NCBI GenBank assembly: GCA_027486675.1
Contig: JAIXOQ010000026.1
Span: forward strand, 1-49,909
Source: Pseudomonadota bacterium
GTDB lineage: Bacteria > Bdellovibrionota > UBA1018 > CAIMNF01
Length of the DNA stretch: 49,909 nucleotides
Direction of reading: 5' to 3'
The notes beneath the pieces are model-generated. The model worked only from the letters and a program-made list of their open reading frames with translations. It ran no database searches and was not told where the DNA came from. Made by a program: the position numbers and the translations under genes. Positions 6,394-45,694 of this stretch are shown one piece after another; the stretch's first letter is position 1, and each line of letters starts with the position of its first letter.

Positions 6394-7521
6394 ATGGCAA
6401 ATCAGCCCGAAGTTTCAGAGTTCACATCAGGCATCTATCAGCTAGAGCCAACCGACCCCGTACAAGGTGGTGAGGGTGGCATTGATAACCTGCCATTGAA
6501 GCAGCTCGCTAACCGTACACGTTGGCTATATGACCGTGTATCAGACCTCTTTGTAAAACAGTTCTATGCGCTGACGGGTGCAACTACCCTAACTACGGGT
6601 GATGCCGGCAATGCGTATGTTCTGTTCAACGCATCCGTGTACACCGTCACTTTGCCGGCACCTAACCTATTTGCACAGGGCAAGGGGTTTCTGTTCATTC
6701 ACGGTGGCGATGCGAATGCGCCTTACAAGATATTCTGCCCATCGGCAAACATCCGCACGGGTTACGGTGGTTTCAATACCGTATCGCTCAAGCCCCTGCA
6801 GCAATTTTGGGTGCTCTCTACCAGCACAGGTTGGCAAGTAGTTGGACAAGACACATGGCAGGACGTTGGAGCTATTCAAGCATTCTCACGCACTACAGCA
6901 CCGCTAGGGTGGTTGGCATGTGATGGCGGGCTATGCTCGCAGTCTGTATTCCCCGATTTGTACAGCATTATTGGCACTATGTACGGAGTTGGTGGAGGTA
7001 GCACATTTCGACTGCCCGACCTACGAGGCGAGTTCCTACGTGGTTGGGATAATGGACGAGGCATTGACACACCATCGCTAGTGTTCACGGGCGTATCTAT
7101 ACCGTTTGAGTCAGGGACTACCGTAGGCTTTACGCTTACCAATCTTTCGTCAACTGCCGAACTATTTGTTGGCATGAGTGTATCGGGTAGTGGCGTTGCT
7201 CCCGGTGCGAAGATTGCTGCAATTGTTGACTCAACGACTGTGCAGTTGGACTTGCGGAACACCATCTCCACAAGCAATGCAACGGTAACATTCACCGTTC
7301 GGCAGGTGGGTAGTTGGCAGAAGGCATCAGGTATTAACGGGCATGTTGGTTCTGCCCCTTGGGCAAATAGTCAGTTAGCCATCACAGTTGGCGATATTGA
7401 CGATACCGAAAACTATTCAATTACCGGAAAGGACACTACCAACACAGGTAGTAGCCAATCGCACAGGCGTTACCGGGTAAGACCCAGGAACGTTGCGATG
7501 TTGTATTGTATCAAATTCTAA
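6394..7521 (+). CDS. Phage tail collar domain protein with an inserted segment
   Basis: This 375-aa protein begins with a ~50-residue segment common to phage fibre proteins (NLPLKQLANRTRWLYDRV). The collar domain starts near residue 158 (IQAFSRTTAPLGWLACDGGL) and has the hallmark FRLPDLRGEFLRGWDNGRGID. In typical collar proteins GRGxD is soon followed by GSWQ. Here about 80 residues rich in Thr, Ser and Val are inserted before VGSWQKASGINGHVG. The C-terminus RRYRVRPRNVAMLYCIKF is the usual collar end. It probably forms a receptor-binding short fibre. The preceding 59 bp contain two CTCGAATTCG copies. Confidence 0.85.
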   Translation: MANQPEVSEFTSGIYQLEPTDPVQGGEGGIDNLPLKQLANRTRWLYDRVSDLFVKQFYALTGATTLTTGDAGNAYVLFNASVYTVTLPAPNLFAQGKGFLFIHGGDANAPYKIFCPSANIRTGYGGFNTVSLKPLQQFWVLSTSTGWQVVGQDTWQDVGAIQAFSRTTAPLGWLACDGGLCSQSVFPDLYSIIGTMYGVGGGSTFRLPDLRGEFLRGWDNGRGIDTPSLVFTGVSIPFESGTTVGFTLTNLSSTAELFVGMSVSGSGVAPGAKIAAIVDSTTVQLDLRNTISTSNATVTFTVRQVGSWQKASGINGHVGSAPWANSQLAITVGDIDDTENYSITGKDTTNTGSSQSHRRYRVRPRNVAMLYCIKF

Positions 7522-7533
7522 ATAGGGAAAGCT

Positions 7534-7998
7534 ATGCTTACTACTGCACAACTCATTTCCAAATACGGTACTCCCAATGACGAGGGGACATATTTGGTTT
7601 CTATTGACCTTCCGTATCCAATGCGCCTTTCGTGGGACTTGAATACCAAAGTCACCAAAATTCGCTGCCATCGGTTGGTGGCAGATAAGCTCAAAGCCGT
7701 GTTTACAGACCTGCTAGCGCACTACGGCTATCAGCAGATTGTAGCTCTTGGCATTGACCTCTTTGGAGGATGCTTCAACTTTCGTAAGATGCGAGGCGGG
7801 AACGATTACAGCCGCCATTCGTGGGGCGTAGCTATTGACCTAGACCCCGACAGAAATATGCTCAAAGAAACAAGCCGTACAGCTCGTTTTGCACGACCAG
7901 AATACAAACCCATGATTGATATTTTCTACAAGCACGGGTTTGTATCGCTAGGCGTAGAGAAGAACTACGATTGGATGCACTTCGAGATTGGCAGCTAA
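7534..7998 (+). CDS. Endolysin, M15-family peptidase (VanY/Ply500-like)
   Basis: This 154-aa peptidoglycan peptidase probably cleaves stem-peptide cross-links during lysis. M15 metallopeptidase motifs are complete: [12 protein letters not shown] (His95 and Asp102 as zinc ligands) and DWMHFE (Asp146, and His149 as third ligand). There is no signal peptide, so export would depend on a holin. Unusually, it sits at the end of the tail operon, 12 bp after the collar gene, while the holin-like and spanin-like genes are near 26.4-27.4 kb. The gene is followed by a factor-independent terminator at 8031. Confidence 0.9.
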
Positions 7999-8030: not shown

Positions 8031-8058
8031 CCCTCGCATCAGCGGGGGTTTCTCTTTT
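8031..8058 (+). terminator. Terminator of the tail/endolysin operon
   Basis: The stem CCCTCGC (8031-8037) pairs with GCGGGGG (8042-8048), with loop ATCA, and is followed by TTTCTCTTTT. The hairpin overlaps the last codons of the converging integrase gene, whose stop codon is at 8039-8041. It ends plus-strand late transcription before it reads antisense through the integrase. Confidence 0.75.
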
Positions 8059-8956
8059 CTATGGCCACCTCAAACCACTTCGACCACTTCAACATGGCAG
8101 CCCTTTTTTCGGGCAGATAGTCGTATCGGTCATAGTGCTTGCTCGACACGTCACCATCAGAATGGTTTTGCAATCGGTCACGCTCTTGCTTGGGGATGCC
8201 GATTTGCCCTGCTAACGTTTTCCATGTGCGCCGCAAATCCCGTGGCGTGAAATGCTCCACATCGTTTTGGGCGCAGAACCTACCGACCACCACCCTCAAC
8301 GTGTGGTCACGTAGCGGCAGATACAGCCCTCGTTCATCAGGCTCAATGCGGTGCAAAATCTCCGCTGCCTGAATGTTGATTGGAATAACGTGCGGTCTGC
8401 CGGGCTTTGTGGTTGGCCACTCGATTGTCATGTGCCGCCAATTCACCATGCTCCGATGGATGCGGCATATTTCCTCCACCCGTTGCCCCGTAGCGGCAAT
8501 CATCTGCAATGCCTTGTAGGCGAGTGGGTTGATGTTTCGATTGGGGTTCTTCTCCCCTCCTCCCTGCTCCAACCATGCCCAAAACTTTTGCAGCTCCTCT
8601 ACGGTGAGCCACCGTTCCCCTGCTACTTTGGGTTCGGACTTGATGTTTGCCGCAGGGTTGTGGGTGATGCCGTACTTTGCCGAAACGGTGCTGCGATAAT
8701 CGTTTTGGGCTTCCAATACCCAACCGTAGGCGGCTCGAACATAGCAGCGCATGTGGTCTGCCATGCTTGCCTTGCCTTGGGAGTAAACAGGGCGAATGGC
8801 TTCAACGATGTCGGATGCCGTCACCTTGTTTGCCGGCTTGCTCCCGATGGCAGCGGCTACCCTTGCGAGCGTTTTGCGCACATCCTCTGCGCTGCGTTTC
8901 TGTTGCGATTTTAGCGCATCGGCATAGTCGTTGAATAAATCCACTAGCTGCGCCAT
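8039..8956 (-). CDS. int: Tyrosine integrase, core-binding and catalytic domains
   Basis: This 305-aa frame holds the core-binding (SAM-like) and catalytic domains of a phage tyrosine recombinase. Catalytic features are present: Arg in AATGQRVEEICR, FTPRDLRRTWKT (the usual His of box II is Arg), an NHSDGDVSSKHYDRYDYL segment with the nucleophilic Tyr in HYDRY, and KRAAMLKWSKWF after it. The ATG at 8956 falls exactly where the core-binding domain begins (MAQLVDLFNDYADAL). The N-terminal arm-binding domain lies upstream in the same frame at 8981-9265, separated by one TAG. It may be translated separately, by readthrough, or be part of a broken gene. The catalytic domain shows no decay. Confidence 0.85.
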   Translation of the reverse strand: MAQLVDLFNDYADALKSQQKRSAEDVRKTLARVAAAIGSKPANKVTASDIVEAIRPVYSQGKASMADHMRCYVRAAYGWVLEAQNDYRSTVSAKYGITHNPAANIKSEPKVAGERWLTVEELQKFWAWLEQGGGEKNPNRNINPLAYKALQMIAATGQRVEEICRIHRSMVNWRHMTIEWPTTKPGRPHVIPINIQAAEILHRIEPDERGLYLPLRDHTLRVVVGRFCAQNDVEHFTPRDLRRTWKTLAGQIGIPKQERDRLQNHSDGDVSSKHYDRYDYLPEKRAAMLKWSKWFEVAIEKRNPR

Positions 8957-15313: not shown

Positions 15314-18073
15314 ATGGGAATCAACTTTGGAGAATTAAAGCAGAGAAACGATATTGTTGATGTAGTCGAGCCGTATGTAAAGCTCGCAAAGAATGGCAGC
15401 GAATATGTTGGCTTATGCCCATTCCACGAAGAAAAAACACCATCCTTGCAGGTCAACCCTCGCAAGCAAATATTCAAATGCTTTGGCTGCGGGAAAGGTG
15501 GCGATGTATTTGACTTTCTCATGGCGTACGGGAAAACACTTCCCGAAGCCGTTGCTATTTTGGAAGGCAATGCAGCACTTATTCCCGACTTCGAGAAAAA
15601 GAAAGCTCGGCAGAAACAATCCCGTGTGGATTGGAAGCCGTTGCAGCCCCAACACCCTGCATCCGTGTTCACTCATTACCGACACGGAGAGCCATCACGC
15701 ACATGGGCTTATCGCAATCCCGATGGCTCAATTCTTGGCTACGTGTGCCGGTTCGACCTTGCCGATGGGAAGAAAGAGGTTCTCCCCTATTCCTATTGCA
15801 CCGATGGCAACCGCTACGAATGGCGATGGCAGGGGTTGGATGTTCCCCGACCTCTATACAATCTGCACCTGCTAGCGCAATTCCCCGACAAGACAGTGAT
15901 TATCGTTGAGGGGGAGAAGTGCGCCGATGCCGTAAACGAGCAGATGGATAAAGCCATTGCCGTATGTTGGATTGGTGGCTCGAAAGGCATCAAGAATGCC
16001 GATTGGCAGCCGCTATTGGGGCGCAAGATTATCTATTGGGCGGATAACCACACACAGGACCGTTACGGAGAAAAGCACCCCAAAGCGGGAGAGCTGAAGC
16101 CATTCCACGAACAGGATGGGAATGCGGCAATGCTCGCTATTGATGCCATCCTGAAAGACCATTGCTCAACACGTAAGTGGCTCAATGTGCCGGCAGAGAT
16201 GCCGCACAAATGGGATGCTGCCGACAAAGAGTGGCAACCGGGCGAGATGAAGAAATTCATTCGAGAAAGCCTGATTGAAGTGCCACCGATACCGATGGCA
16301 GAACCCGAACCGATGCCGGAGCTGCCACCATCACCACCACCGATGGAGGAGCATGAAGGAAAATCGGAATTCCCAATTTATCATGCTGACCAATCCCCTC
16401 CCCCACCTCCGCCCAACATGGAAGAGGACGAGAACGAGCTAAGTCAACATAACCCGTACTTCAAGTTTCTAGGCTACTTCAACGATAGCGGCAGACCAAC
16501 ACACTGTTTCTATCCGTTGGGGAACAAGCTAATTGTAAAGCTCAACACTTCGCAAATGACAGTAAGTTCCCTAATGGACTTAGCCCCATTGGCATATTGG
16601 GAACATAACTTTCCCAACAAGGGAAAAGCCAAATTCGATGTTGATGCAGCGACCAATTGGCTATCGGCAACATCACAAGCGGCAGGGATATTTTCGAGCA
16701 AACGTGCCCGTGGCCGTGGTGCATGGTTCGATGATGGGCGCACCGTTCTCCATGCAGGTAGCCACCTTGTGGTGGATGGGCAGCAGTTACCCCTAGGCAA
16801 GCTAACTACCAACTACATCTACGAGGTGGGTGAGCCGTTGGGTTTTCCCGAACGCAAACCTTTGCCGGCTTCGGAAGCATCGAAGCTGCTAGAGGTGACG
16901 AAGCTCGTGAATTGGGAAAGGGAAGTGAACGCCTACCTGCTAGCCGGGTGGTGTGTGATTGCGCCCATTTGCGGAGCGTTGAAGTGGCGACCTCACATTT
17001 GGATAACCGGTGCCGCTAGCAGCGGTAAGAGTTGGGTGTTCAAGGAGATCATTCGCAGGCTGCTAGGCGATACGGCTTTTGCCGTGCAAGGCGAAACGAC
17101 TGAATCAGGGCTACGGCAGTGGCTTGGGCATGATGCCTTACCGGTTGTGTTTGATGAAGCCGAAGCGGAAGACAAGCGCAGTCAAGAGCGCATCCAAACC
17201 GTTCTAAACCTGATGCGGGCTGCATCCTCTGACGATGGCGGCAAGATGGCCAAAGGCTCTGCTGCCGGCAATGCCGTGACATACAGCATACGTAGCTGTT
17301 TTGCGTTCGCATCCATTGGGGTGAGCCTAAGCCAACAGAGTGACCGTTCACGGGTGACCATTCTCGGGGTGAAGAAGCTCAAAGACGACGACCCCGTGCG
17401 CATCGAGCGATGGGACAAGCTGCAGAAGCTTCATAACGACCTAATCACGGACGATTATGTGGAAAGGATGCAGGCTCGAACCCTGACTATGGTTCCTATC
17501 ATCATCAAGAATGCAGCCACGTTTGCCAATGCAGCGAAGAACGTAATCGGTGCGCAAAGAGCAGGTGACCAATTAGGGGCAATCCTCGCAGGTGCATACT
17601 CGCTATTCAGCAGCAAGTTGATAACCTATGAAGAAGCAGTGATGTGGGTGAAAGATAAGGATTGGAACGAAGAGAAAGGGCTAGAAAGCACCCGTGACGA
17701 GTACGTGCTGTTTAGTTACCTGATGGAGCAGATTACCCGTGTGGAAGCCAACGGAACGGGCTACGAGCGCACCATTGGCGAACTGATACTCGCTGCTTCC
17801 CTCGATAAGCAGGACGAGTACATAGGAAACGAAACAGCCCAAAACAGACTGAGGCGTTTGGGCTTCAAAATAGACAGTACCGGATTTATGTACATTAGCA
17901 ATCGTTCTGCGAGCATTAGTAAGATGCTCAACGGTACTCCGTGGGAAAAGAACCACAGCCGGACGCTGATGCGCATAGAGGGTTCTGTTTCGATTGAAAG
18001 CACTACATTTGCAGCAGGGATAAAGGGAAGAGCCGTAGCGTTACCGATACGACTACTTACCGGCAAGCCATAA
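15314..18073 (+). CDS. Primase-helicase (CHC2 zinc finger, Toprim-like, P-loop ATPase)
   Basis: This 919-aa replication protein has a DnaG-type CHC2 zinc finger at the N-terminus (Cys35, His38, Cys56, Cys59 in [10 protein letters not shown] and [13 protein letters not shown]), a Toprim-like region near 190-240 ([15 protein letters not shown], then IIYWADNH), a Pro/Glu-rich linker near 330-380, and a C-terminal P-loop ATPase with Walker [12 protein letters not shown] (about 564-574) and Walker [12 protein letters not shown] (about 607-617). It probably primes and unwinds the phage genome. It is the largest early gene and ends just before a terminator. No DNA polymerase is found in the window. 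Confidence 0.88.
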
Positions 18074-21690: not shown

Positions 21691-22257
21691 ATGAGCTTAG
21701 GACTATTTAAATCGAAACTGCACCTTGCCGTTTCCAATGACGACCTCAGACCCGCACTGCAACACATCGCATTCATAAAAGGCTATGTGTACGTGACGGA
21801 TGCTCTCATAGCCATACGGCAATCACTCGCATGGATGGACTTCTCACCCGAAGAAATAGCCATCATGAACGGCAAATTCCTGACTGCCGAAGCCTACGAA
21901 TTAGCATTGAAGGCAAGTGCTATCGAAGTAACCGAAGATGGGTTGGACGTTCGTTTGGCAACAAAAAAGCGCCAACGGATATTCATCAGTTGGGCAGAAC
22001 TTTCCGAACGCTACCCCGATGTGGAGAGCGTCTTACGCAAGTCAGTTGATAAAAGCAACGTACCTACAGAGCCACGCTATACCACTCAGGTAGGGCTACA
22101 CCCTAAAACTTTATCTAGGCTACTGAACTCAATGGACTTCGAAGAAACGGCAGTATTCGACATCAGAAAGCCGAACGATGCTGTTGTAGTGACTGCTACA
22201 GCCATTGAAACGGAAAACCAACTGGCAATCATCATGCCGACATTACTCAATCCATAA
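21691..22257 (+). CDS. Putative beta-clamp-like (DnaN-fold) protein
   Basis: This 188-aa protein contains DLRPALQHIAFIKGYVYVTDALIAI, which resembles the start of sliding-clamp domains (RPaLq.V.f.dG.lvaTDg..L). The remainder includes VTEDGLDVRLATKK and a C-terminal ETAVFDIRKPNDAVVVTATA, compatible with clamp-like beta strands. It would be about one or two clamp domains, so it may assemble as a higher oligomer or only mimic the fold. It sits amid replication genes and precedes the ParB-like gene by 10 bp. Confidence 0.5.
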   Translation: MSLGLFKSKLHLAVSNDDLRPALQHIAFIKGYVYVTDALIAIRQSLAWMDFSPEEIAIMNGKFLTAEAYELALKASAIEVTEDGLDVRLATKKRQRIFISWAELSERYPDVESVLRKSVDKSNVPTEPRYTTQVGLHPKTLSRLLNSMDFEETAVFDIRKPNDAVVVTATAIETENQLAIIMPTLLNP

Positions 22258-22267
22258 TCAATCAACC

Positions 22268-23764
22268 ATGGCAAAATCAAAACCACAAACACTGCCCCCA
22301 ACCCAAAATGCAGCACTTCGCTCGCTATCCGTGCTTGAAGTTTCTCCATCGGCAAATAACCCACGCAAACAATTCAACGATGCCGACCTTGCCGACCTAG
22401 CCGCATCGGTGGCGAAGGTGGGCATCATGCAGCCCATTCTCGTGCGACCCGATGCCGACGGCTACGAGATTGTATGCGGTGAACGACGCTACCGTGCAGC
22501 CGTTCTAGCAGGGCTTACAGAAGTGCCCTGCATCGTGCGCACACTCACCGATGACGAAGCCTTTCACATCGCCATCACGGAGAACCTACAGCGGAAAGAC
22601 ATCAACCCAATGGAAGAGAGCGATGCATTCTTTCAGCTCACCAAGCGAGGCAAGACCTCAGCAGCCAAGATAGCCGACATGCTAGGCGTTGGCGAAAAGT
22701 ATGTTTACGACCGTTTGGCCTTGCAGCGATGCATACCCGTAGTACAGGAACAGATACGAAGTGGAAGCCTGCCAATCACACACGGTAAGCAGTTTGCACG
22801 CCTTACGTTTGACGACCAACAGCAACTATACGACCAATGCGCATCTAAGGCAGGTGGCATCACACTAACGGACATCAAGCGGAATATCGAAAACACGTTT
22901 GAGCGCAACTTGGAAGAAGCTCCGTTCAACATCAAGAACCCTAGCCTCTACGAGCAAGCAGGTGCATGTACGAACTGCCCAAAACGTTCGGGATGCAACG
23001 CACTTCTGTTTGACGATGTGCAGAGCAAGGATGTTTGTTTTGATGCGGATTGCTATGCCAAGAAGGTGGAGCTGCATATTGCGAGCATAAAAGCACAGCT
23101 ACTTGCGGAAGGTAAAATAGTTCACGAGGTAACCGCAGCGCACCATAGCGATACCTACATGGGTACAAAAATGTTTGTTGTAGCTGAAAACGGCGATACT
23201 CCTGATGCATATGGCATCGTTATGGATACCTACTCGTGGAGCAGTTGGAAGATTGGCGAAGTTCTTCCCATCAATATGCGGAGTATTGCAACCCCTGCTA
23301 TCAGTAGTACAGAGGGTAGCTCAACACAAGACAGACCGCCACGTATTGACCATGATGAGGCGTTTACTCACATTGCAGCCAAAGCGGTGCTAGATAAATT
23401 CAAAGATGATCCGTTTAAGATATCGTCAAGGGAGCTAGTAAAGCAGTTAATTGTCGGTACTATGTACAACAAGCTAACTTACGAGATGCTTAAACTGGTA
23501 TTCGAGCATTTGGGATGGGAAATAGTAGGAATGGGCAACAATATCGACGCCATAGACTACAAGGCCACCATCTCCATTGCCTACGACAATATGCAGGTAG
23601 GGCAGAGTTATCTACTAGACCTCACAGCGGTGCTTGACTTGCTCGAAACATACGATTGGGTAGAGGAAGAAGCAGACCGTAAATTTGAAGCCACCAAGCA
23701 TTTGGGTATAGACTTAGAGGCACTCCGAACCGAATACCAAACCAAACACAATCACAAATTCTAA
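22268..23764 (+). CDS. ParB/RepB/Spo0J-family protein
   Basis: This 498-aa protein has an N-terminal ParB-like domain: VSPSANNPRKQFNDADLADL, GIMQPILVRP, then GERRYRAAVLAGL, ENLQRKDINPMEESDAF and an HTH region KIADMLGVGEKYVYDRLAL. A cysteine cluster, CTNCPKRSGC and CFDADCYAKK, follows near 235-275 and probably binds zinc. The long C-terminus (about 300-498) is unrecognised. ParB-like proteins can be partition proteins, CTP switches or nucleases; no ParA is found nearby, so partition by a ParA partner is not supported. ATG at 22268 is preferred over upstream in-frame starts inside the clamp-like gene. Confidence 0.85.
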   Translation: MAKSKPQTLPPTQNAALRSLSVLEVSPSANNPRKQFNDADLADLAASVAKVGIMQPILVRPDADGYEIVCGERRYRAAVLAGLTEVPCIVRTLTDDEAFHIAITENLQRKDINPMEESDAFFQLTKRGKTSAAKIADMLGVGEKYVYDRLALQRCIPVVQEQIRSGSLPITHGKQFARLTFDDQQQLYDQCASKAGGITLTDIKRNIENTFERNLEEAPFNIKNPSLYEQAGACTNCPKRSGCNALLFDDVQSKDVCFDADCYAKKVELHIASIKAQLLAEGKIVHEVTAAHHSDTYMGTKMFVVAENGDTPDAYGIVMDTYSWSSWKIGEVLPINMRSIATPAISSTEGSSTQDRPPRIDHDEAFTHIAAKAVLDKFKDDPFKISSRELVKQLIVGTMYNKLTYEMLKLVFEHLGWEIVGMGNNIDAIDYKATISIAYDNMQVGQSYLLDLTAVLDLLETYDWVEEEADRKFEATKHLGIDLEALRTEYQTKHNHKF

Positions 23765-24767: not shown

Positions 24768-25280
24768 ATGGACGACAACAAAATACTCGACCTAGCGAAA
24801 AAACTCAAAGCCCTAGCTGACCAAGGAGTGGATGGGGAAAAGGAGAATGCCGCAGCGATGCTCCAACGACTGATGGAGAAACATGGCATCACACTCGAAA
24901 GCATCAGCGATGAAGTGAAGCGCAAACGCTACTTTGACATCAAGACCACTCAACAGAAGTTTTTTCAACAGGTAGCATCAAGCGTCATTGGTGGCGGCTT
25001 TAGTTACTTCGTATCGCCTACTAGCAAACGCAGGATAGGCATAGAGCTGACCGATGCACAGTACATTGAGATAGATGCCAAATTCGAGTTCTATATCAAA
25101 GCTTACGAAAAGGACCTTGATATATTCTATCGGGCATTTATCCATCGCAACAGACTAACGGCAAAGCCAACAGAAAACGACACCCGACCCGGACATAAGA
25201 TGTCGGAAGACGACCTGAAAGTGCTCGAAATGATGCGAGCAATGAACAAACACGAATTTCAGAAACGCTTATCCAACTAA
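24768..25280 (+). CDS. DUF2786-containing protein
   Basis: This 170-aa protein has an N-terminal DUF2786-like segment: KILDLAKKLKALADQGVDGE, ENAAAMLQRLMEKHGITLESI (about 6-46), the family pattern being K(i)..LLala....epEA..A...A..Lm.k.gi. The rest is mixed with KMSEDDLKVLEMMRAM near the end. The family is common in phages and its biochemical role is not established. It precedes the methylase-like gene by 4 bp. Confidence 0.7.
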   Translation: MDDNKILDLAKKLKALADQGVDGEKENAAAMLQRLMEKHGITLESISDEVKRKRYFDIKTTQQKFFQQVASSVIGGGFSYFVSPTSKRRIGIELTDAQYIEIDAKFEFYIKAYEKDLDIFYRAFIHRNRLTAKPTENDTRPGHKMSEDDLKVLEMMRAMNKHEFQKRLSN

Positions 25281-25284
25281 TCGT

Positions 25285-26124
25285 ATGGCTTCCAAAAAAA
25301 CAACCGAACCACCCAAACGGGCATTCATTAAGACACTAGAACAGATAGCCCACCGGCACCACATCACCCAAGTGTTTGACGACTTCATGGAGATAGCTAT
25401 CTGCGCTCTTTCGCTTGGTAGGATGGAGGAGCGATACTTCGAGCTAATCAAACGCTACAGCCGTGACGAGCTGACCAAGTTCCAAGAATGCTTTGCCCAT
25501 ATGTTCAGCGAATACGATAGAGCTGCGCAAGACGGTGGGTGGGATGATATGTTGGGCATTTACTTCGAGGAAATAGGTAGCCTATCAGGCAAGCAAGCAA
25601 TGGGGCAGTTCTTCACGCCTAAGTGCATCTGCGACTTGATGGCTCAGCTCAACCACGACCCCAAGAGCCCCGTGCCAAATGGCACTACTGTAGCCGATCA
25701 CGCAGCCGGCAGCTCTCGAAACCTCATAGCTCATGCCCGACTGCATCCGCAGAACCGTTGGAACTCGTTCTATCATGCCTACGACCTTGACCGCAGGTGT
25801 GTGAACATGAGTGTGCTCAACATGGTAATGTACGGCATGAAGGGCGTAGCCATCCACATGAACACCCTCTCACTAGAGGTGTACTCAGGATATCGGGTAT
25901 ATCTTCCCGAAACGGGCTTAGGCATCACCCGACTGACAGAGCAACAATGTTGGGCATACATGACGGAACGAAGGGAGCAAGAAGCGACGATTTCCAAAAT
26001 GGAAACAACCACAGACGGAAACGAATGCCCCTCTGTGGCAGCACCCGACCAACCCAAGGTAATCACTATCCCCGATTACAAATCACTTCTTGGTAACCCA
26101 TTATTTCAACAATCATTATTTTAG
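25285..26124 (+). CDS. N-6 adenine methylase-like protein lacking a visible NPPY motif
   Basis: This 279-aa protein resembles the HsdM-type N6-adenine methylase core. GQFFTP is at 107-112, and motif I, normally D-P-A-A-G-S-G, reads DHAAGSS (138-144), followed by AYDLDRRCVNMSVLNMVMYG (165-184), which matches the family. The catalytic NPP(F/Y) tetrapeptide that should follow near 200-230 is absent: the region reads MNTLSLEVYSGYRVYLP. The protein also ends early. It may bind SAM without methylating, or act as an anti-restriction or regulatory protein. Confidence 0.75.
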   Translation: MASKKTTEPPKRAFIKTLEQIAHRHHITQVFDDFMEIAICALSLGRMEERYFELIKRYSRDELTKFQECFAHMFSEYDRAAQDGGWDDMLGIYFEEIGSLSGKQAMGQFFTPKCICDLMAQLNHDPKSPVPNGTTVADHAAGSSRNLIAHARLHPQNRWNSFYHAYDLDRRCVNMSVLNMVMYGMKGVAIHMNTLSLEVYSGYRVYLPETGLGITRLTEQQCWAYMTERREQEATISKMETTTDGNECPSVAAPDQPKVITIPDYKSLLGNPLFQQSLF

Positions 26125-26128
26125 CACC

Positions 26129-26338
26129 ATGAAACAGAAAAAACAGTTCTGCATCCCCGAAGCAGAAGACAAGATGCAGCATACACCACATTACGAGCGT
26201 TCTATACCATTACAGCGGGATAGAATACACGTCGATTGGGATGCTTTTTACAAACAGGACTATAAGCACTCCGAGATGGCATACCCAACTAAGGGGGGCG
26301 TAGGCACACACAAGCTACCCGCTACACGACCTCACTAG
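26129..26338 (+). CDS. Hypothetical small protein
   Basis: This 69-aa hydrophilic protein starts MKQKKQFCIPEAEDKMQH. It is not recognised. It ends just before the inverted repeat at 26363 that separates the early genes from the lysis genes. Confidence 0.5.
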   Translation: MKQKKQFCIPEAEDKMQHTPHYERSIPLQRDRIHVDWDAFYKQDYKHSEMAYPTKGGVGTHKLPATRPH

Positions 26339-26362
26339 AGGTCACCAAAAACACATTATGTA

Positions 26363-26413
26363 ATTGGCAGATTATCGCTACATTTGAGCGAACAATCTGC
26401 CAATTTTCATTTT
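26363..26413 (+). promoter_or_regulatory. Inverted repeat with embedded -7 box before the lysis genes
   Basis: AATTGGCAGATT (26363-26374) is a perfect 12-bp inverted repeat of AATCTGCCAATT (26395-26406). An inner CGCT/AGCG pair (26377-26380, 26388-26391) closes on the loop, and the TACATTTG spanning 26380-26387 fits the TAnnTTTG -7 consensus. The RNA hairpin followed by TTTTCATTTT could also terminate the upstream operon. The ATG of the first lysis gene is 7 bp past the repeat. It is either a terminator or an operator over a lysis promoter, or both. Confidence 0.55.
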
Positions 26414-26683
26414 ATGAGCAATCCCAACAACGAACGTCGTTCCATTACGCCCGGCGAACTACTTACCGCATCCATAGTGGTAGTAGGTGCCGTACTTTCA
26501 TTTTGGATAAGTACAAGCACTCGCCTTACTGCACTAGAAATCCGAATAGGTGTGCAGGAGGAAACCAACAAGCAAGTGAATAACAAACTCGACAAGCTGC
26601 AAGACGGCATCAATGAAATCAAAGTGACGCTGCAGAACAAACAAGACAGACCGACCATTGGTGGCACGGGAAACCTCAAGTAA
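26414..26683 (+). CDS. Membrane protein with coiled coil (lysis-associated)
   Basis: This 89-aa protein has an N-terminal soluble stretch, one transmembrane segment (LLTASIVVVGAVLSFWIS, about 15-32) and a C-terminal coiled coil (EIRIGVQEETNKQVNNKLDK). This resembles the XhlA/spanin-like or pinholin-associated small proteins found next to holins. It is the first gene of the putative lysis module. ATG at 26414 is preferred. Confidence 0.6.
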   Translation: MSNPNNERRSITPGELLTASIVVVGAVLSFWISTSTRLTALEIRIGVQEETNKQVNNKLDKLQDGINEIKVTLQNKQDRPTIGGTGNLK

Positions 26684-26699
26684 CCAAACCCTTAATAAT

Positions 26700-26891
26700 A
26701 TGTTCAAGCTATCTAACCTAACCAAGCCCACGCCAAAGTTTTGGAAGCGGCTCGGTAATGCGCTGTTCGCTGTGTCTACGGGCTGTACTATACCGGCCAT
26801 TCTTACCGACAACCAAGTGCTCGCCTACATTATCTTCGGGCTTGGTGCTCTTGGAAAATTCATTACCTCACTCACATCCGATGAAGAATGA
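26700..26891 (+). CDS. Putative holin
   Basis: This 63-aa protein has a basic N-terminus and two hydrophobic stretches (LGNALFAVSTGCTIPAIL and LAYIIFGLGALGKFITSL) with a short charged C-tail. This size and topology suit a small holin that permeabilises the inner membrane so the M15 endolysin can reach the wall. It is between a membrane/coiled-coil gene and the lipoprotein gene, which it overlaps by 4 bp (ATGA). Confidence 0.6.
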   Translation: MFKLSNLTKPTPKFWKRLGNALFAVSTGCTIPAILTDNQVLAYIIFGLGALGKFITSLTSDEE

Positions 26892-27415
26892 AACACCTAC
26901 TCATTTCCGCATGCATCGCCATAGTTACTGTAGGCTGCGCATCGCATAAGAAACTCGTTACAGAAACGCATTCCGCTACCGATAGCGTGGCGAAGTCCGC
27001 ACATCTAAGGGTAACCACTCGCACCATTGACACGGTGGCAAAATCGAAACCTGACAGCCTCAGAGCTGCGTTTGCCATCACGGGCTATGTTCCCCCATCA
27101 CTTCCAACCATTGCCGGCAAACCATTCGAGCAATGGACCTTTGCGAGTGGTGCTCTAACTGTGACGGCTACGCTCGACAAAGCCACGGGCAAAGTTGACC
27201 TGCAGGCGAACACCAAACCACAGGAAGTGCCGGTACAGCTCCACGAAATGACCGTTGAAGCCGATACGCGCGAAACGACCAAGAAAACGGAAGCAGACGA
27301 CTATCACAAAGCAGTAGAGCCGAAAACGAACTGGACGTGGAAAGGAGTTGCAATAACTCTATCGCTGCTGCTGCTTGCAATCATCATTTATTTGGTGAAA
27401 CGATTTTTTCCGTAA
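26888..27415 (+). CDS. Unimolecular spanin (u-spanin)-like lipoprotein
   Basis: This 175-aa protein has a lipoprotein signal (MKHLLISACIAIVTVGC) with the lipobox cysteine at 17, a long hydrophilic middle of about 130 residues, and a C-terminal transmembrane segment (GVAITLSLLLLAIIIYLV). A lipid anchor at one end and an inner-membrane span at the other is the defining layout of u-spanins such as phage T1 gp11, which fuse inner and outer membranes during lysis. It overlaps the holin-like gene and ends before two terminators. Confidence 0.65.
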   Translation: MKHLLISACIAIVTVGCASHKKLVTETHSATDSVAKSAHLRVTTRTIDTVAKSKPDSLRAAFAITGYVPPSLPTIAGKPFEQWTFASGALTVTATLDKATGKVDLQANTKPQEVPVQLHEMTVEADTRETTKKTEADDYHKAVEPKTNWTWKGVAITLSLLLLAIIIYLVKRFFP

Positions 27416-27427
27416 TATTGTACTTCA

Positions 27428-27447
27428 AAGCGGTTTCCGCTTCTTTT
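27428..27447 (+). terminator. Terminator 1 after the lysis module
   Basis: AAGCGG (27428-27433) pairs with CCGCTT (27437-27442) around TTT, followed by CTTTT. Confidence 0.6.
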
Positions 27448-27475
27448 CTGCTCATAAGGATTTTTATTTGCGAAG

Positions 27476-27502
27476 AACCCTCCATACGGAGGGTTTTTTG
27501 TT
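27476..27502 (+). terminator. Terminator 2 after the lysis module
   Basis: AACCCTCC (27476-27483) pairs with GGAGGGTT (27488-27495) around ATAC and is followed by TTTTGTTTT. It lies at the end of the convergent minus-strand gene and may stop transcription from that side too, though no long T-run is on the other flank. Confidence 0.85.
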
Positions 27503-27862
27503 TTACACCAAGTCTTCTGCGGGGAATGCCACATCACGAAGCGCATTGACGGACTTCTCGAACACTATCGGGTTCATATCCAACGCTGCCTGCCGTAGCC
27601 GCTTTAGCTCTTCCTCGACCTCGTACACCCTGCCGTATTGTCGATAGGCGGTGACGATAGCCGTGCCATCGCTCTCGTGGACACGTAGCACCAATCCAAC
27701 GTGCTGCCGCTTTTCCCGTGATACGAAATTCCGCACATCCCTGATGTTTTGGTAGTGTTTTCCTTGGACTAGCGTTGCTTGTCCGGTTTGCATGGCCTCT
27801 GCGCATGCTGCCCGTACATGCTGCGCAGTGCCCGGTGTGGGTTTTGCTGTTTTCTCTGCCAT
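27503..27862 (-). CDS. Small protein encoded beside the iteron array; candidate repeat-binding protein
   Basis: This 119-aa protein starts MAEKTAKPTPGTAQHVRAAC. The frame extends upstream into the GATACA array, but the repeats there encode an artificial hydrophobic pattern, so ATG at 27862 is chosen. Residues about 40-60 (IRDVRNFVSREKRQHVGLVL) include a basic helix, and 80-95 (VEEELKRLRQAALDMN) another. I cannot assign a family. The gene is alone on the minus strand with the array directly upstream of its start, so it is probably expressed from within the array and may bind it, as ParR, TubR or Rep proteins do at their own repeats. That function is inferred. Confidence 0.55.
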   Translation of the reverse strand: MAEKTAKPTPGTAQHVRAACAEAMQTGQATLVQGKHYQNIRDVRNFVSREKRQHVGLVLRVHESDGTAIVTAYRQYGRVYEVEEELKRLRQAALDMNPIVFEKSVNALRDVAFPAEDLV

Positions 27863-27863
27863 T

Positions 27864-28103
27864 GATACAAATTTGATACAAAAGTAGATATATTGAACGA
27901 TACAAACGAAGATATATTGTGAGATATACTGCAATTTTAGATACAAATGTGATACAAAGTGAGATACAATGTATGATACAGCCCCGAAAAGATACATTTT
28001 TGATACAAAAAATGATACAAACGTGGATATATCCGAAGATATACAGCCGTGTATCTGCGTTTGTTAGATACATTGTATCGAAATTTGTATACAGATTTGT
28101 ATC
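27864..28103. repeat. Phased GATACA/GATATA iteron array (~12-bp pitch)
   Basis: Hexamers GATACA or GATATA start at 27864, 27875, 27887, 27899, 27911, 27923; then 27940, 27951, 27963, 27975; then 27991, 28002, 28014, 28026, 28038. Inverted copies (TGTATC/TGTATA) start at 28050, 28074, 28086 and 28098, with a direct one at 28067. Spacing is 11-12 bp within blocks and 16-17 bp between blocks. About 20 sites in 240 bp, with the polarity reversing near one end. It is typical of iterons at origins or partition sites. The interval has no credible gene. Confidence 0.9.
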
Positions 28104-28395
28104 TTGATTAGGGCAAAAAACGCCCAAAACGTTGACACGTTGACCATAATTGCTATGAAAATCAGCTACTTAGCTTGTCAACGTTTTTTCGAAGAATATA
28201 TAGACAGATAAACAGGTCTACAAACCGTACATAGACACCTACTACTACTACTACTTATATCTATATATTTTGTTGTTTTGTTGACAATGTGCCTCAAACC
28301 CTTATGCAGCAAGGGTTTGGTATGTCAACAAGCTGTCAACAAGCTGTCAACAAATCAACAAATGGCTATTCGGCAATAATGGGCTACATTTGGGC
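28104..28395. repeat. Second repeat set (TGTCAAC) with A/T-rich spacer; possible origin
   Basis: TGTCAAC or its complement GTTGACA occurs at 28131, 28176, 28280, 28323, 28334 and 28345, with partial copies at 28139 (GTTGAC) and near 28355. The three at 28323-28351 are spaced 11 bp. AAAACGTTGACA (from 28127) and TGTCAACGTTTT (from 28176) are inverted repeats. Between the sets are a CTA-triplet run (28240-28255) and A/T-rich DNA (28250-28280). CAAACCCTT and AAGGGTTTG (28294-28319) form a 9-bp stem. No gene is seen. Two repeat families beside an A/T-rich patch is the usual look of a replication origin. Confidence 0.7.
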
Positions 28396-29070
28396 ATGCA
28401 AACAAAAATTAAAATCGAAGGATTGAATAAACTACGGCAATGGGCTGACCACGTAGATAAAAACACCAAAATTGGCGTACAAATGGCAATAAACGATTCT
28501 CTTAGGTTTGGGCGAACTCGCATCAGAGAAGATATTGCAAAAGAGTATAACGTCAAACTCGGAAGGTTATATGCATCAGACCGTAAAAAAGGGCTGCATG
28601 TTAAACCTGCCTACTACAATAATTTGCAAGGAACAATAACAGCAGGAAATATGCCTGTAGGGCTTTCCGGGTTTAATGGTAATAGGTTAGCCGTGGAAAC
28701 AACAGGCTATAACATATCGTTCGCATCTTCTATTAAAACTCGAAAAATGCGCGTACAGCGTAAGGCAATACGGAAAGCTGGTGGTATTAGCGTTGAAATT
28801 AAAAAGGGTAGAAGGGATGTAATTCGCTCCGCATTCAAAATTCCAAAATATGGAAGTTTAGTGTTTGCTAGGGGAAACTATTCTGCATTTGGCTTTTTGT
28901 GGAGACATAGACGAGTAAATACAACAGGTCAGGATAAGCCTATTGAAGTGTTAAATTCCACGTCAGTAGCAACAATGGCATTGAACAAGCACACTGTACT
29001 TCGTTACTTTTTACCCATCCATAGAAAATATGAGCAAGAACTACAACGACAACTCAAGCGGTTGTTGTAA
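28396..29070 (+). CDS. Minor tail protein Z (GpZ)-like protein
   Basis: This 224-aa protein resembles the prophage minor tail protein Z/tail-completion family: a helical N-terminal part with MAINDSLRFGRTRIREDIAKEY (family pattern: a..A.N.ta...r...r.i...y.v), then strand-rich segments and a C-terminal HTVLRYFLPIHRKYEQELQRQL. It is far from the tail operon and visibly more A/T-rich than its neighbours, suggesting separate acquisition. ATG at 28396 is chosen over TTG at 28390. A -7-like TACATTTG lies only 3 bp upstream, so a leaderless transcript is possible. Confidence 0.6.
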   Translation: MQTKIKIEGLNKLRQWADHVDKNTKIGVQMAINDSLRFGRTRIREDIAKEYNVKLGRLYASDRKKGLHVKPAYYNNLQGTITAGNMPVGLSGFNGNRLAVETTGYNISFASSIKTRKMRVQRKAIRKAGGISVEIKKGRRDVIRSAFKIPKYGSLVFARGNYSAFGFLWRHRRVNTTGQDKPIEVLNSTSVATMALNKHTVLRYFLPIHRKYEQELQRQLKRLL

Positions 29071-29333
29071 TCAATCGTCATTTGTTTGTATCATGTCGGG
29101 AAATTGTCCAATAATGGGACATGTATGGGAAGTTTTTCCCACAATGGGATTGACTAGGTTCTTTCTAGGGCAAACTACTGCGGGGGCGAACACCCGCAAA
29201 TCTTCGCCACTCGGAGAGTTTTTTCAAAGTTACAAGGGTGCTGATTTTGAGTTACTGCCGCAATCATCCAATTTCACGCCTGATAACGGGAAACTGCATG
29301 AGCTGAACGCCATTGTTGCCTACCTTTGGCGGC
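29071..29333 (+). other. Intergenic region with several small hairpins, no gene
   Basis: The segment holds short inverted repeats: GTCC/GGAC around 29107-29120, TGGGAA/TTCCCA near 29127-29142, and GCGGG/CCCGC near 29181-29198, then CTCGGAGAG followed by T6 near 29212-29226, which could terminate transcription of the GpZ-like gene. A frame crossing the region (29030-29410) overlaps both neighbours and has no protein-like character. Confidence 0.45.
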
Positions 29334-30038
29334 ATGAAAAACGACATCAAACTTCACTATTGGCCACTCGAACGACTGCGCCATTATGCCGGCAATGCAC
29401 GCAAGCATGACGAGCGCAACGTTGAGGAAATAGCCGCAAGCATCAGCCGCTTTGGGTTCGTGAACCCCGTGTTGGTTGATGCAGATGGCGAAATCATTGC
29501 CGGGCATGGTCGCGCACTAGCAGCGGAGTTTTTGAAGCTCTCAAAAGTGCCGGTGATTGTGCTGAACGACCTGAGCGAAGCAGAGAAACGCGCGCTTCGC
29601 CTTGCGGACAATCGCATCGCTGAAAAGTCCACATGGGACAATGATGCCGTTCAGGCAGAGCTTCGCGCACTCCGTGAATTAGATGCAAGCACAGAGGGCT
29701 TGGGTTGGTCGGATGCGGAGCTTGAAAACATGCTCCGTGAAGCCGAGAGCATTTTGCCCGATGATCCTTACGAGCCACCGCAGCGCACCATCGTAAGCGA
29801 GCGCAGCGATAGAGCCGACAGCAACAACGACAACGACACGGACGAAAAGCCGCTGCGACCTGCAGAGCCGAAGTCCTCTGATGATGATTATTCGCTGTTC
29901 GAGCTAGTCATGCTCCATGAAAACAAGGTTCGCCTTGTCGAAGTCCTAAGTCAGATTAGGGCGGATAAGCTATACGACAAATTGGAAGACGCACTCATGC
30001 ACATGGTTCGTCACTATACGGGGGAGCCGAATGCGTAA
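29334..30038 (+). CDS. ParB-like nuclease-domain protein
   Basis: This 234-aa protein has an N-terminal ParB/Srx-fold domain: YAGNARKHDERNVEEIAASI, RFGFVNPVLVDADGEIIAGHGRALAA (about 40-65), then LRLADNRIAEKSTWDNDAV. The rest is charged and probably disordered (about 150-190) with a helical C-terminus. Such domains, alone or fused to methylases, are common in phage DNA-modification loci. The 3' end overlaps the cupin gene by 8 bp, so it opens a tightly packed five-gene cassette ending at 33122. Confidence 0.85.
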   Translation: MKNDIKLHYWPLERLRHYAGNARKHDERNVEEIAASISRFGFVNPVLVDADGEIIAGHGRALAAEFLKLSKVPVIVLNDLSEAEKRALRLADNRIAEKSTWDNDAVQAELRALRELDASTEGLGWSDAELENMLREAESILPDDPYEPPQRTIVSERSDRADSNNDNDTDEKPLRPAEPKSSDDDYSLFELVMLHENKVRLVEVLSQIRADKLYDKLEDALMHMVRHYTGEPNA

Positions 30039-30750
30039 TCCTTCCTTTAGCCGGTTCGGGTTTGACGGCACACTGTTCCACGACAACGACATTACCGTGT
30101 ACGGTATCCGTGGCCACAACCACGTACCGATGCAGGGTGGCGCATGGTTCGTGTACGTGCATTCCGGCATCGTGCAAGCCCGTGGCGACATTGTGCTGAC
30201 TGCCGGCATGTACGGGGTGGTGAATTGGGGCAACATCGTTGTGTTGGAACACAGCGAAGTGCTGCTAGTCCACCACTCAAAACATCAGGCCTTGCACACC
30301 TTTGGCGGTCCCATCGAGGAACGGGGACGGCTTGCCTACATCGATGGCTGTACCGATACGCAGCTCTTGCCGCCTGTTCGCAAGGGTGACCCCTGCCTAA
30401 ACCACCTGCACTTCCCTATCGACATCAACCAAACGCAGCACACCCACCCATCCATCAGGGTTGGCATTGTGGCTCGTGGCTATGGAGAGTGCGTCACACC
30501 CTTTGGCAATGCCGAACTTCGGGAGGGTGACATCTTCCTCATTCATCCCGAAGACGGGAGCAAGGCTCTAGGGGTGGATGGTCAGCAGCACTTGGTTGGT
30601 ACCCACTCGTTCAGGACACGGTACCGGCAGATGGATGTGGTCGCATTCCACCCTGACAGCGAAGTCGGTCCTACTGACGAGCTGCATCAGATGAAAGTTG
30701 CCACCATCATCAACGGCATCAGCGCAAGCGACATGGAGCTGCGCCGGTGA
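30031..30750 (+). CDS. Bicupin-like protein
   Basis: This 239-aa protein is likely to contain one or two cupin barrels. The second is clearer: HLHFPIDINQTQHTHPSIRV (about 125-144), GYGECVTPFGNAELREGDIFL, with the His-x-His and later Glu/His spacing of metal-binding cupins, and HSFRTRYRQMDVVAFHPDSE near the end. The first half (HNHVPMQGGAWFVYVHSGIV) has a similar strand rhythm. Cupins range from enzymes to sensors. It is coupled by overlap to the ParB-like gene upstream and to the PAPS-reductase-like gene downstream, so it is probably part of the same pathway. Confidence 0.7.
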   Translation: MRNPSFSRFGFDGTLFHDNDITVYGIRGHNHVPMQGGAWFVYVHSGIVQARGDIVLTAGMYGVVNWGNIVVLEHSEVLLVHHSKHQALHTFGGPIEERGRLAYIDGCTDTQLLPPVRKGDPCLNHLHFPIDINQTQHTHPSIRVGIVARGYGECVTPFGNAELREGDIFLIHPEDGSKALGVDGQQHLVGTHSFRTRYRQMDVVAFHPDSEVGPTDELHQMKVATIINGISASDMELRR

Positions 30751-31448
30751 GGATAAAGACCGTTGGCCATGCCTACGACCTGAAAGACAAGACCGATGAA
30801 GCTCGTGCAATCCTTGACGAGTTTCTGCCAACGGTGAAGTCACCACTAATCGCATTCAGTGGCGGCAAGGATAGCATCGTGTTGTCACACATGCTTGCCA
30901 CGTACTATGGGGTAAAAGATGCAATCTGCGCCAACTCCTACTGGTTTGCTCGAACTGATGCGGAAATACGCACTAAGGTTGTGCCGGCACTTGGAATCCA
31001 TGTTACTTATTGGGACCGGTTGGGAGCCTATTGGATATTCAAACGGGAGAATCGTAAGTATATATGGCCTACGGATACTAGAACTTTCGGGCAATTCTAC
31101 GCCCTCTGCCAACAGTCCACAGTCAAGCGACATGCGCTTGGCAGCGGTAATGATGCTGTGCTGTATGGACGACGGAAGCAGGAAAATGTTGTGCCTGCTC
31201 CAACCTATCGAACACGAGACGGACTACACAACTGTTTCCCACTAATCAGTTGGCGGCACGAACATATTTGGACGTACATCAGGCGTCACGAGCTGCCGTA
31301 TCCATCCATCTACGAGTACGAGCTTGGCTCAAAGGAAGGCTGTACATCGTGGAACATGATTGATCCGCGGATGTACAAACAGACACCTTCCGAGCTGATT
31401 GAAGAGTTTTGCCCGACTACATGGAACAAGATTAGGGATAGGCTGTGA
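30747..31448 (+). CDS. PAPS reductase/DndC-like PP-loop ATPase
   Basis: This 233-aa protein is an adenylating PP-loop enzyme of the phosphoadenosine phosphosulfate reductase family. SGGKDS is at 38-43, followed by the family's later motifs, including LISWRHEHIWTYIRRHELPY. Relatives activate sulfate or transfer sulfur to nucleic acids (CysH, DndC). It starts at GTG, overlapping the cupin stop (GTGA), and overlaps the next gene by 4 bp in the same way. Substrate unknown. Confidence 0.85.
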   Translation: MRIKTVGHAYDLKDKTDEARAILDEFLPTVKSPLIAFSGGKDSIVLSHMLATYYGVKDAICANSYWFARTDAEIRTKVVPALGIHVTYWDRLGAYWIFKRENRKYIWPTDTRTFGQFYALCQQSTVKRHALGSGNDAVLYGRRKQENVVPAPTYRTRDGLHNCFPLISWRHEHIWTYIRRHELPYPSIYEYELGSKEGCTSWNMIDPRMYKQTPSELIEEFCPTTWNKIRDRL

Positions 31449-32626
31449 GGCGACAACTCCGGCAGAAGTCGTTCACCGGGCAGGACGTGTACTCGGCATC
31501 CTTGGAGCGAGTGCGCTACCTGTACAAACGGTTCGACCACGTAATCATTTCTTTTTCCGGCGGCAAAGACAGCACCGTTGTTTTGAACATCACAATAGAG
31601 GTTGCCCGTGACCTTAATCGTCTACCTGTTCGTGCGATATTTGTCGATGAAGAAGTCATCGACCCCTACACGATAGAATACGTGAGCCGGGTTCGTGAGC
31701 TGCCCGAAGTGCAGTTGGATTGGTACTGCTTGCCGGTCAAACACCGTAACGCCTGTAGCACCGAACAGCCGTATTGGTACTGTTGGAACCCCGAAGAACG
31801 CCACCTTTGGGTTCGGGAGCCACCACCGTGGGCAATCATGGAGCATCCCGAACTAGAGCTAGGCGAAAGCTACCAACAGTGGATGCCCCGCATATTCCCC
31901 AACAGCATGGGGAGTGTTGCTTTGCTCACCGGCATCAGGACGCAGGAAAGCCTAAGACGGTTTCAGGTCATTGCCGGCAAACGGAATGATCCTTACATCA
32001 AGACACGAGCCATTGCGCACAACTGCTACAACACGCATCCAATATACGATTGGAGTACGGAAGACGTATGGAAGTATGTTCAGGTAAAGAGCCTAGACTA
32101 CAACCGATGCTATGACGTGTTCAACCATACGGATATGCACGGAAAATTGCTGCAGCAGCGAGTTTGCCAACCTTTCGGAGAAGAACCACTGCGCAAGCTC
32201 CATGTGTACGCAGAATGTTTTCCCGAAATGTGGGCGAAGATGCTAGGGCGTGTAAAGGGCGTGAACACGGCGTTCCGATATGCGAATACGGAACTGTATT
32301 TGAGCGGCACAAAGCCCGATGGCATCAGTTGGGAGGACTATTGCCACCAACGAGTGCTTGACTACACCGATGAAGCCATCCGCAAAAAGGTGGAAGGCAA
32401 CATTCAAGCCCTTATCCGTAGGCATTACCGCAAAACAGATGACCCCATAGACGATGCAATTGCCCACCCCGTAAGTGGTTGCAGTTGGCGTTTCCTATCG
32501 AAAATCGCTGTAAAAGGCGATTTGAAGAACAGAACCCAAAACAAGATGCTCAACGAAGCGATGAACCGTTGCAAGCAGTTGGGCATCACCACTGATGAAG
32601 CGAAGGAGCTATACGGACGTGCGTAA
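31445..32626 (+). CDS. ibrA: IbrA-like PAPS reductase-family protein (DUF3440)
   Basis: This 393-aa protein is a second PP-loop enzyme with SGGKDS at 38-43. NTHPIYDWSTEDVWKYV (about 198-214) is the typical second motif, and a long C-terminal domain (RKLHVYAECFPEMWAKMLGR onward) fits the DUF3440 extension of IbrA/YbdN. It starts with GTG overlapping the previous stop. IbrA is usually encoded with the ParB-like IbrB, and an IbrB-like gene follows here. IbrAB are known as activators of eib genes in E. coli; the underlying chemistry is not settled. Confidence 0.85.
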   Translation: MRRQLRQKSFTGQDVYSASLERVRYLYKRFDHVIISFSGGKDSTVVLNITIEVARDLNRLPVRAIFVDEEVIDPYTIEYVSRVRELPEVQLDWYCLPVKHRNACSTEQPYWYCWNPEERHLWVREPPPWAIMEHPELELGESYQQWMPRIFPNSMGSVALLTGIRTQESLRRFQVIAGKRNDPYIKTRAIAHNCYNTHPIYDWSTEDVWKYVQVKSLDYNRCYDVFNHTDMHGKLLQQRVCQPFGEEPLRKLHVYAECFPEMWAKMLGRVKGVNTAFRYANTELYLSGTKPDGISWEDYCHQRVLDYTDEAIRKKVEGNIQALIRRHYRKTDDPIDDAIAHPVSGCSWRFLSKIAVKGDLKNRTQNKMLNEAMNRCKQLGITTDEAKELYGRA

Positions 32627-33122
32627 CGCTCAACCTATCGACACAGTTAGGTGGGTACATCGGGACACATTGAAACCCAATCACTACAACCCGAACAGCG
32701 TTCCACCTCCCGAACTCGAACTCCTAGCCATCAGCATCAGGGAAGATGGATGGACACAGCCCATCGTAGTCAATCCCGACATGACCATTATTGATGGCTT
32801 CCATCGGTGGACTGTTAGCGGCCAATTGGAGGTGTACAAGCTTACCGGCGGCATGGTTCCGGTGGTCACTATAACCCCGCTCGATATGAGTAGTCAGATG
32901 ATGGCAACTGTGCGCCACAATAGAGCTAGGGGAATTCACGGCGTATTGAAGATGGCGGACATAGTTGAACGCATGTTGAACAGTGGCGTTCAAGTTTCAG
33001 AGATATGCCGTAAATTGCAGATGGAAACAGAAGAAGTCTATCGACTAGCCAACAGAAAGGGCATTCCTAGAACAGCACTTATCAAGAATGCTGAATGGTC
33101 TGAAAGTTGGGTACCAAAATGA
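32595..33122 (+). CDS. ibrB: IbrB-like ParB-domain protein
   Basis: This 175-aa protein has the ParB/Srx domain with HYNPNSVPPPELELLAISI, EDGWTQPIVVNPDMTIIDGFH (about 53-73), where DGFHRW replaces the GERR motif of true ParB, as in the IbrB/YbdM family. A C-terminal HTH-like region follows (VSEICRKLQMETEEVYRLAN). The longest frame overlaps ibrA by 32 bp; GTG at 32619 would give an 8-bp overlap and fits the GTG usage of the two upstream genes. It closes the cassette 6 bp before the small terminase gene. Confidence 0.82.
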   Translation: MKRRSYTDVRNAQPIDTVRWVHRDTLKPNHYNPNSVPPPELELLAISIREDGWTQPIVVNPDMTIIDGFHRWTVSGQLEVYKLTGGMVPVVTITPLDMSSQMMATVRHNRARGIHGVLKMADIVERMLNSGVQVSEICRKLQMETEEVYRLANRKGIPRTALIKNAEWSESWVPK

Positions 33123-33128
33123 CCGAGT

Positions 33129-33698
33129 ATGAGCAAAAAGCAATCAACTTCAGGAGAAAAGCCTTTATCCGTCAGCGAGTACGCCCGCCGTAAGGGCGTA
33201 AGCCATACATCTGTGTTTCGTGCCATTGATGCCGGCAGATTGGTAAAGGGGTTGGTGGTTCTAGCCAACGGCAAGAAAGGCATCATCGAGAGCATTGCCG
33301 ACAAAGAGTGGGTGGAGAATACGAACACCGATCACCACTTTTCCCGATACAGCGTTCAGGGTGGGAAGAACGCCACCGATATCGACCCCGAAGAAACTAA
33401 GGCGCAGTCACAGAACAGATTGCAGGCTGCCAAACGTGCCAAAGCCATTTTCGATGCCAAGCTAGCCGAGCTAGACTACAAGAAAAAAGCCGGCATATTG
33501 GTCGAGAAGGATAAGGTGTACAAGAAGCTGTACGAGTTTGGGCAGGTATTACAGAGCGAGTTGTTGGCAATTCCCGACAAAGTAATAGACGAGCTGCTTG
33601 CTACCGACAACAGGAATGAAGCAGTAGCGAAGTTGTACGACGAGATAGCGGGCGTATTGGAACGACTTACGAAGTACGACAATGCCGAGGTAGTTTAA
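33129..33698 (+). CDS. Small terminase subunit
   Basis: This 189-aa protein has an N-terminal winged/HTH region (SVSEYARRKGVSHTSVFRAIDAG) followed by a helical region (AKAIFDAKLAELDYKKKAGILVEKDKVYKKL), the pattern of Nu1/DUF1441-type small terminases. It would recognise the packaging site (probably cos, since the large subunit is lambda-like). It is 2.3 kb upstream of the large subunit with RNA genes and SSB between, which is unusual. Confidence 0.78.
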   Translation: MSKKQSTSGEKPLSVSEYARRKGVSHTSVFRAIDAGRLVKGLVVLANGKKGIIESIADKEWVENTNTDHHFSRYSVQGGKNATDIDPEETKAQSQNRLQAAKRAKAIFDAKLAELDYKKKAGILVEKDKVYKKLYEFGQVLQSELLAIPDKVIDELLATDNRNEAVAKLYDEIAGVLERLTKYDNAEVV

Positions 33699-45589: not shown

Positions 45590-45661
45590 CGTGGCGTAGA
45601 GCAGCGGTAGCTCATCGGGCTCATAACCCGAAGGTCGCAGGTTCGAGTCCTGCCGCCGCAA
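45590..45661 (+). tRNA. Initiator tRNA-fMet (CAT)
   Basis: A full cloverleaf is seen: acceptor CGTGGCG/CGCCGCA, D arm GAGC-AGCGGTA-GCTC, anticodon arm TCGGG-CTCATAA-CCCGA with CAT at 45622-45624, variable AGGTC and T arm GCAGG-TTCGAGT-CCTGC, A73. The C1-A72 mismatch and three G-C pairs at the base of the anticodon loop are the bacterial initiator hallmarks. CCA is not encoded. It lies within the tail operon between the tube and chaperone genes, so it would be co-transcribed late. Confidence 0.9.
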
Positions 45662-45694
45662 CTATTTTATCACAACAAACAAGAGGAAAACACA

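Follow-up and report, generated by a model that had tools for sequence, protein, structure and literature searches.

The 49,909-bp contig analyzed here (the window) is a complete, circular, integrase-bearing genome of a myovirus-type phage, and one 527-bp intergenic region in it (27863–28389) holds two arrays of short sites: a row of GATACA-type hexamers on the left and, directly to its right, two clusters of GTTGAC iterons with an AT-rich tract between them. The first-pass annotation had overlooked the second array. Both arrays, their statistical significance, and the conserved register and layout of the right half are direct observations, and the conserved iteron region is the more general finding and the better supported one. 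Tentatively, we read the whole region as a composite control site—a conserved origin on the right and sites for a neighboring 119-aa protein on the left—at which that protein might regulate its own gene and influence the origin.

The first and last 119 bases of the complete contig are identical (1–119 = 49791–49909), and the genome is therefore a circle of ~49,790 bp, whose arbitrary contig ends split a tail gene. The contig belongs to a 2.7-Mb genome assembly and carries phage head, tail, terminase, integrase, helicase, and primase families. The tyrosine integrase lies at 8039–8956; when the region around it was compared with the other contigs by BLAST, matches were at chance level, with no clear attB, and no integration site was identified. 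A tRNA-Met (CAT) gene is located within the tail module (45590–45662).

The left array (27864–28103, plus strand) comprises 20 exact GATA(C/T)A sites. Three direct blocks contain 15 of them—six sites at 27864–27928, four at 27940–27980, and five at 27991–28043—at a pitch of 11–12 bp, and the rest are of mixed orientation. Successive forward spacings are 11,12,12,12,12 / 17 / 11,12,12 / 16 / 11,12,12,12, so that the 11-bp step is the first spacing in every block. The first-pass annotation had described about 20 sites in 240 bp, blocks of six, four, and five, and gaps of 16–17 bp, exactly as we find them. Its interval of 27503–28103 joins the array to the adjacent gene (27503–27862), and the orientation switch that it reported is a rough one: reverse sites do occur beyond 28026 (at 28028, 28050, 28074, and 28098), but a further forward site lies at 28067.

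Its view that this regularity exceeds chance is borne out by the counts: 20 GATAYA sites were observed against 0.18 expected in the array stretch (Poisson P ~1e-16), and dinucleotide shuffles of this AT-rich stretch (n = 2,000) gave a mean of 1.05 sites and never more than 5. Across the remaining 49.7 kb of the contig there are 35 GATAYA sites, a background level, and the target is therefore local. The array matches itself with peaks at lags 12 and 24, and it holds three copies of 53 nt that are 70–72% identical. Because the blocks are alike over 53 nt at ~70% and each opens with the 11-bp step, comparison of the copies suggests that the array probably grew by block duplication. The hexamer is the sole strongly conserved part of the repeat unit. 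Of all 100-bp windows of the phage, the one of lowest stability starts within the array, at 27866.

Several other descriptions of the array were rejected: a coding repeat, since spacings of 11, 16, and 17 bp break every reading frame; a 45-codon upstream extension of the 119-aa gene, which merely translates the repeats; a simple tandem repeat, given that the sites vary in spacing and outside the hexamer; and an RNA element, Rfam having no match in 25000–30000. A search of the 368-genome phylum set, viral contigs, and genome contigs yielded no comparable array among the matches listed, which were mostly simple GATACA tandems, coding repeats, and smaller clusters. Separately, a phage group comprising L050, L058, L065, L072, L075, L078, and ~20 similar viral loci shares a cluster of ~100 bp, made up of about five GATACACC sites and one inverted site; a gene that looks by eye like a terminase small subunit lies a few hundred bases away.

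As annotated, the array stands beside a lone minus-strand gene (27503–27862), which encodes a basic 119-aa orphan protein (pI 8.8). The array adjoins the start codon: its first site lies 1 base upstream, and the row spans the upstream region of the gene. Codon usage scores this frame best among the six frames of its stretch. No homologs of the protein were found in phages, plasmids, viral contigs, genome contigs, or the 368 phylum genomes, and family libraries returned only weak profile matches without functional meaning. A single-sequence structure model (pLDDT 46.7) places two helices before a beta hairpin and two more at the C terminus. A winged helix would be compatible with this order, at a confidence too low to claim one; structure comparison of this model gave no match with E ≤ 0.001. 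The first-pass proposal that this protein binds the array gains no support from these searches or from the model. No sigma-70 promoter of standard type for the gene was found in the array.

The right half of the intergenic region contains seven GTTGAC sites (28131–28351) against 0.11 expected (P 4.5e-11), at 28131>, 28139>, 28177<, 28280>, 28324<, 28335<, and 28346< (> forward, < reverse). The AT-rich tract between the two clusters (28184–28283) is the third least stable 100-bp window of the phage. To the right follows a neck/tail-completion protein gene (phrog_27; 28390–29070, plus strand), which is the conserved right-hand neighbor of the iterons. Between it and the terminase, 29313–33122 encodes a ParB-like protein, an AraC-type cupin domain, two PAPS-reductase/DndC-like proteins, and another ParB_N protein; this gene set, mostly retained in the related phage record L010, may be a DNA-modification cassette.

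Relatives identified through their terminase, L010 and L012 among them, carry the same element with a different hexamer. GTTTAC sites precede the neck gene in both (11 in L010 and 10 in L012), with the element at 4298–4542 and 7474–7751, respectively. Measured from the first site, the register is +0> +8> +46< +149> +193< +204< +215< in the window, +0> +8> +50< +56< +150> +158> +201< +213< +225< in L010, and +0> +8> +50< +56< +149> +157> +200< +211< in L012; the shared positions (+0, +8, ~+48, +149/150, ~+197, and ~+208) are nearly superimposable. Alignment of the element sets GTTGACACGTTGACC against GTTTACACGTTTACC: one base has changed in concert across the shared iterons (GTTGAC versus GTTTAC), with the spacing nearly kept. 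On this alignment, the changed hexamer and unchanged layout point to a sequence-specific reader that would have changed alongside its sites.

The element extends to cultured Bordetella phages. In PY223 and PBb002, unannotated regions ahead of the neck gene, at 25303–25577 (L311) and 22228–22502 (L312), contain an AT-rich core surrounded by GTTACG sites, and both phages match the window in gene order: helicase, CHC2 primase, small minus-strand genes, iteron/AT-rich region, neck gene, terminase, and Mu-like tail genes. Cluster P values for the equivalents in L010, L012, PY223, and L022 range from 1e-9 to 1e-14, and in L171 the cluster, in a GTTCC form, is weaker (P 4e-4). More distant terminase relatives (L015, L019, L020, L023, and others) showed no convincing iteron clusters at the thresholds used. 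The two small minus-strand genes that adjoin the iteron region in PY223 and PBb002—unannotated in PBb002 but present in its sequence—are not homologous to the 119-aa gene, and the Bordetella phages differ from the window in their iteron, GTTACG, and in lacking the GATACA array. L010 and L012 lack the GATACA array as well; the corresponding place is taken there by a plus-strand gene that is unrelated and includes an HTH-like stretch. Because the array is missing from L010, L012, and the Bordetella phages, all of which have different small genes there, the GATACA array and the 119-aa gene are, by these comparisons, a lineage-specific add-on abutting the conserved iteron element.

In origins of the SaPI/P4 type, an AT-rich tract has a cluster of short iterons on each side. 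Because the right half of the intergenic region matches this anatomy—hexamer-sized sites in two clusters and both orientations, with an AT-rich tract between—we infer that 28131–28351 is probably a phage replication origin; packaging and late-promoter roles for the iteron region are alternatives. In SaPIs, the helicase gene is followed directly by the iterons, which the C-terminal domain of the helicase recognizes (PMC7581432). The candidate reader of the GTTGAC iterons is the 919-aa CHC2 primase-helicase (15314–18073, plus strand), which has 48–49% identity to its counterparts in the L010 and L012 records and 38–41% in the Bordetella phages. A predicted structure of its C terminus (pLDDT 38.8) was too poor for use and was set aside. 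The iteron region is not adjacent to the primase gene in the window, L010, or L012, and in the window the gene ends (18073) ~10 kb away. Adjacency to helicase or primase genes is seen only in L085, L054, and L022, where genes were called by eye: the gap between the cluster and a helicase/primase-like gene is 3 bp in L085 and 13 bp in L054, and the L022 cluster follows a helicase-like gene and precedes a terminase-small-subunit-like gene. Some of these other phages thus resemble SaPIs in having the cluster directly beside a helicase gene; L085 and L054 were retrieved by the GATACA pattern, so that their gene neighbors are independent evidence but their motif is not.

The window has the repeat excess of a SaPI-type origin and, conserved in relatives, its AT-rich tract with a cluster on each side, but not a position directly downstream of an initiator helicase gene, and it also differs in the additional uniform direct repeats of the GATACA row. 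Because the helicase adjacency is absent, we describe the region as working like a SaPI origin rather than as a member of the class. A GC-skew inflection at 28 kb, which the first-pass annotation had proposed as a check, is present only as a local sign change in the window, and the detrended minimum falls at 32.8 kb; the Bordetella relatives show no inflection. The origin role that it had considered for the GATACA array is plausible, although mainly through the neighboring GTTGAC iterons and AT-rich element rather than through the array.

For the region as a whole, the simplest mechanism combines binding, autoregulation, and an effect on the origin by the 119-aa protein. The right half (28131–28351) would serve as a conserved replication origin, probably read by the primase-helicase. 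On the left, the 119-aa protein, whose gene is transcribed divergently, would most likely oligomerize with the GATACA array as its nucleation site. With the first site so close to the start codon and the row extending over the upstream region, binding from the start codon outward would shut off the 119-aa gene, and the resulting protein–DNA filament may affect the firing or handling of the adjacent origin.

The nearest rival to this composite reading is a rather unlikely one: the array would be a plain multisite operator through which the 119-aa regulator controls its own gene, uninvolved in replication or segregation and only incidentally next to the iterons. The position of the sites from the start codon across the upstream region, and the lack of any site excess elsewhere on the contig, are what such an operator would show, but 20 sites in 240 bp are many for a simple operator and the array abuts a conserved cis element. 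An extended form of the composite reading, which we regard as unlikely, would have a second, independent nucleoprotein array and its one-gene, motor-free binder added to the conserved iteron origin as a composite origin/segregation site, with iterons and reader switching specificity together from relative to relative (GTTGAC, GTTTAC, and GTTACG). A centromere-like site for motor-free stabilization of a circular prophage is quite unlikely. Blocks of direct repeats are also found in tubC of TubZR systems, where the repeat pitch is 12 bp. In tubC, two or three such blocks lie upstream of the operon (PMC5016525), and plasmid R388 offers a precedent for stabilization without a motor-like partner: StbA binds 9-bp repeats in two sets of five, with 2 nt between repeats, around the promoter of its own gene at an 11-bp pitch, and stabilizes R388 without StbB (PMC3098194). 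The window shares with these systems three direct-repeat blocks at 11–12-bp pitch that adjoin the gene for a small basic protein, on a circular contig without host flanks or a clear attB match. Against partition, the tyrosine integrase means that the prophage may simply integrate, and neither StbA nor TubR shows a family match to the 119-aa protein. The stbDR repeat, TTGCATCAT, is a different one, arranged in two blocks of five on a plasmid rather than a phage, and the proteins have no family match. The first-pass statement that the window encodes no motor holds for the ParA and tubulin types: ParA ATPases (PF01656 and PF13614) matched only on other contigs, and the tubulin-like GTPase family (PF00091) matched contig C15 only and not the phage contig, C22, which has no tubulin/FtsZ homolog. 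Of the parts of a TubZRC system, the region has direct-repeat blocks upstream of a gene, whose product is a candidate DNA-binding protein, but not the GTPase, and it lacks the ATPase of ParABS systems. ParM (PF06406) also gave no match, in a search in which the control genomes gave none either. As between partition and autoregulation, nothing in the data favors partition.

Two further rivals place another phage protein on the repeats. Very unlikely, in our judgment, is a packaging (pac/cos) site whose repeats would be bound by the terminase small subunit (phrog_57; 33129–33698, plus strand). The intergenic region does stand at the start of the packaging/head module, in a marine phage group a gene judged by eye to resemble terminase small subunits has GATACA-containing clusters a few hundred bases away, and the L054 and L022 clusters lie near such genes. 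The small-subunit gene is, however, ~5 kb away in the window, the L085 and L022 clusters directly follow a helicase-like gene, and the AT-rich core with an iteron cluster on either side resembles an origin. Least probable of all is binding of the array by the ParB-family protein (ParB_N and HTH_ParB domains; 22265–23764, plus strand), which has no ParA partner on the contig, or by the primase-helicase as extra iterons. The presence of the ParB-family gene and the GATACA-cored clusters beside helicase/primase-like genes in L085 and L054 speak for such a binder; the motif in those two records is what retrieved them, and synteny predicts that the primase reads GTTGAC instead.

The putative composite control site, with its conserved right half and added left half, adds a very regular and unusually long direct-repeat array to the known cis elements of phages. 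Among myovirus-type phages with CHC2 primases, cultured Bordetella phages included, the iteron comparison points to origin-like regions with short iterons as a testable family. Within this family, the concerted one-base change across the iterons would constitute a natural experiment in which a DNA-binding protein and its sites shift specificity together.
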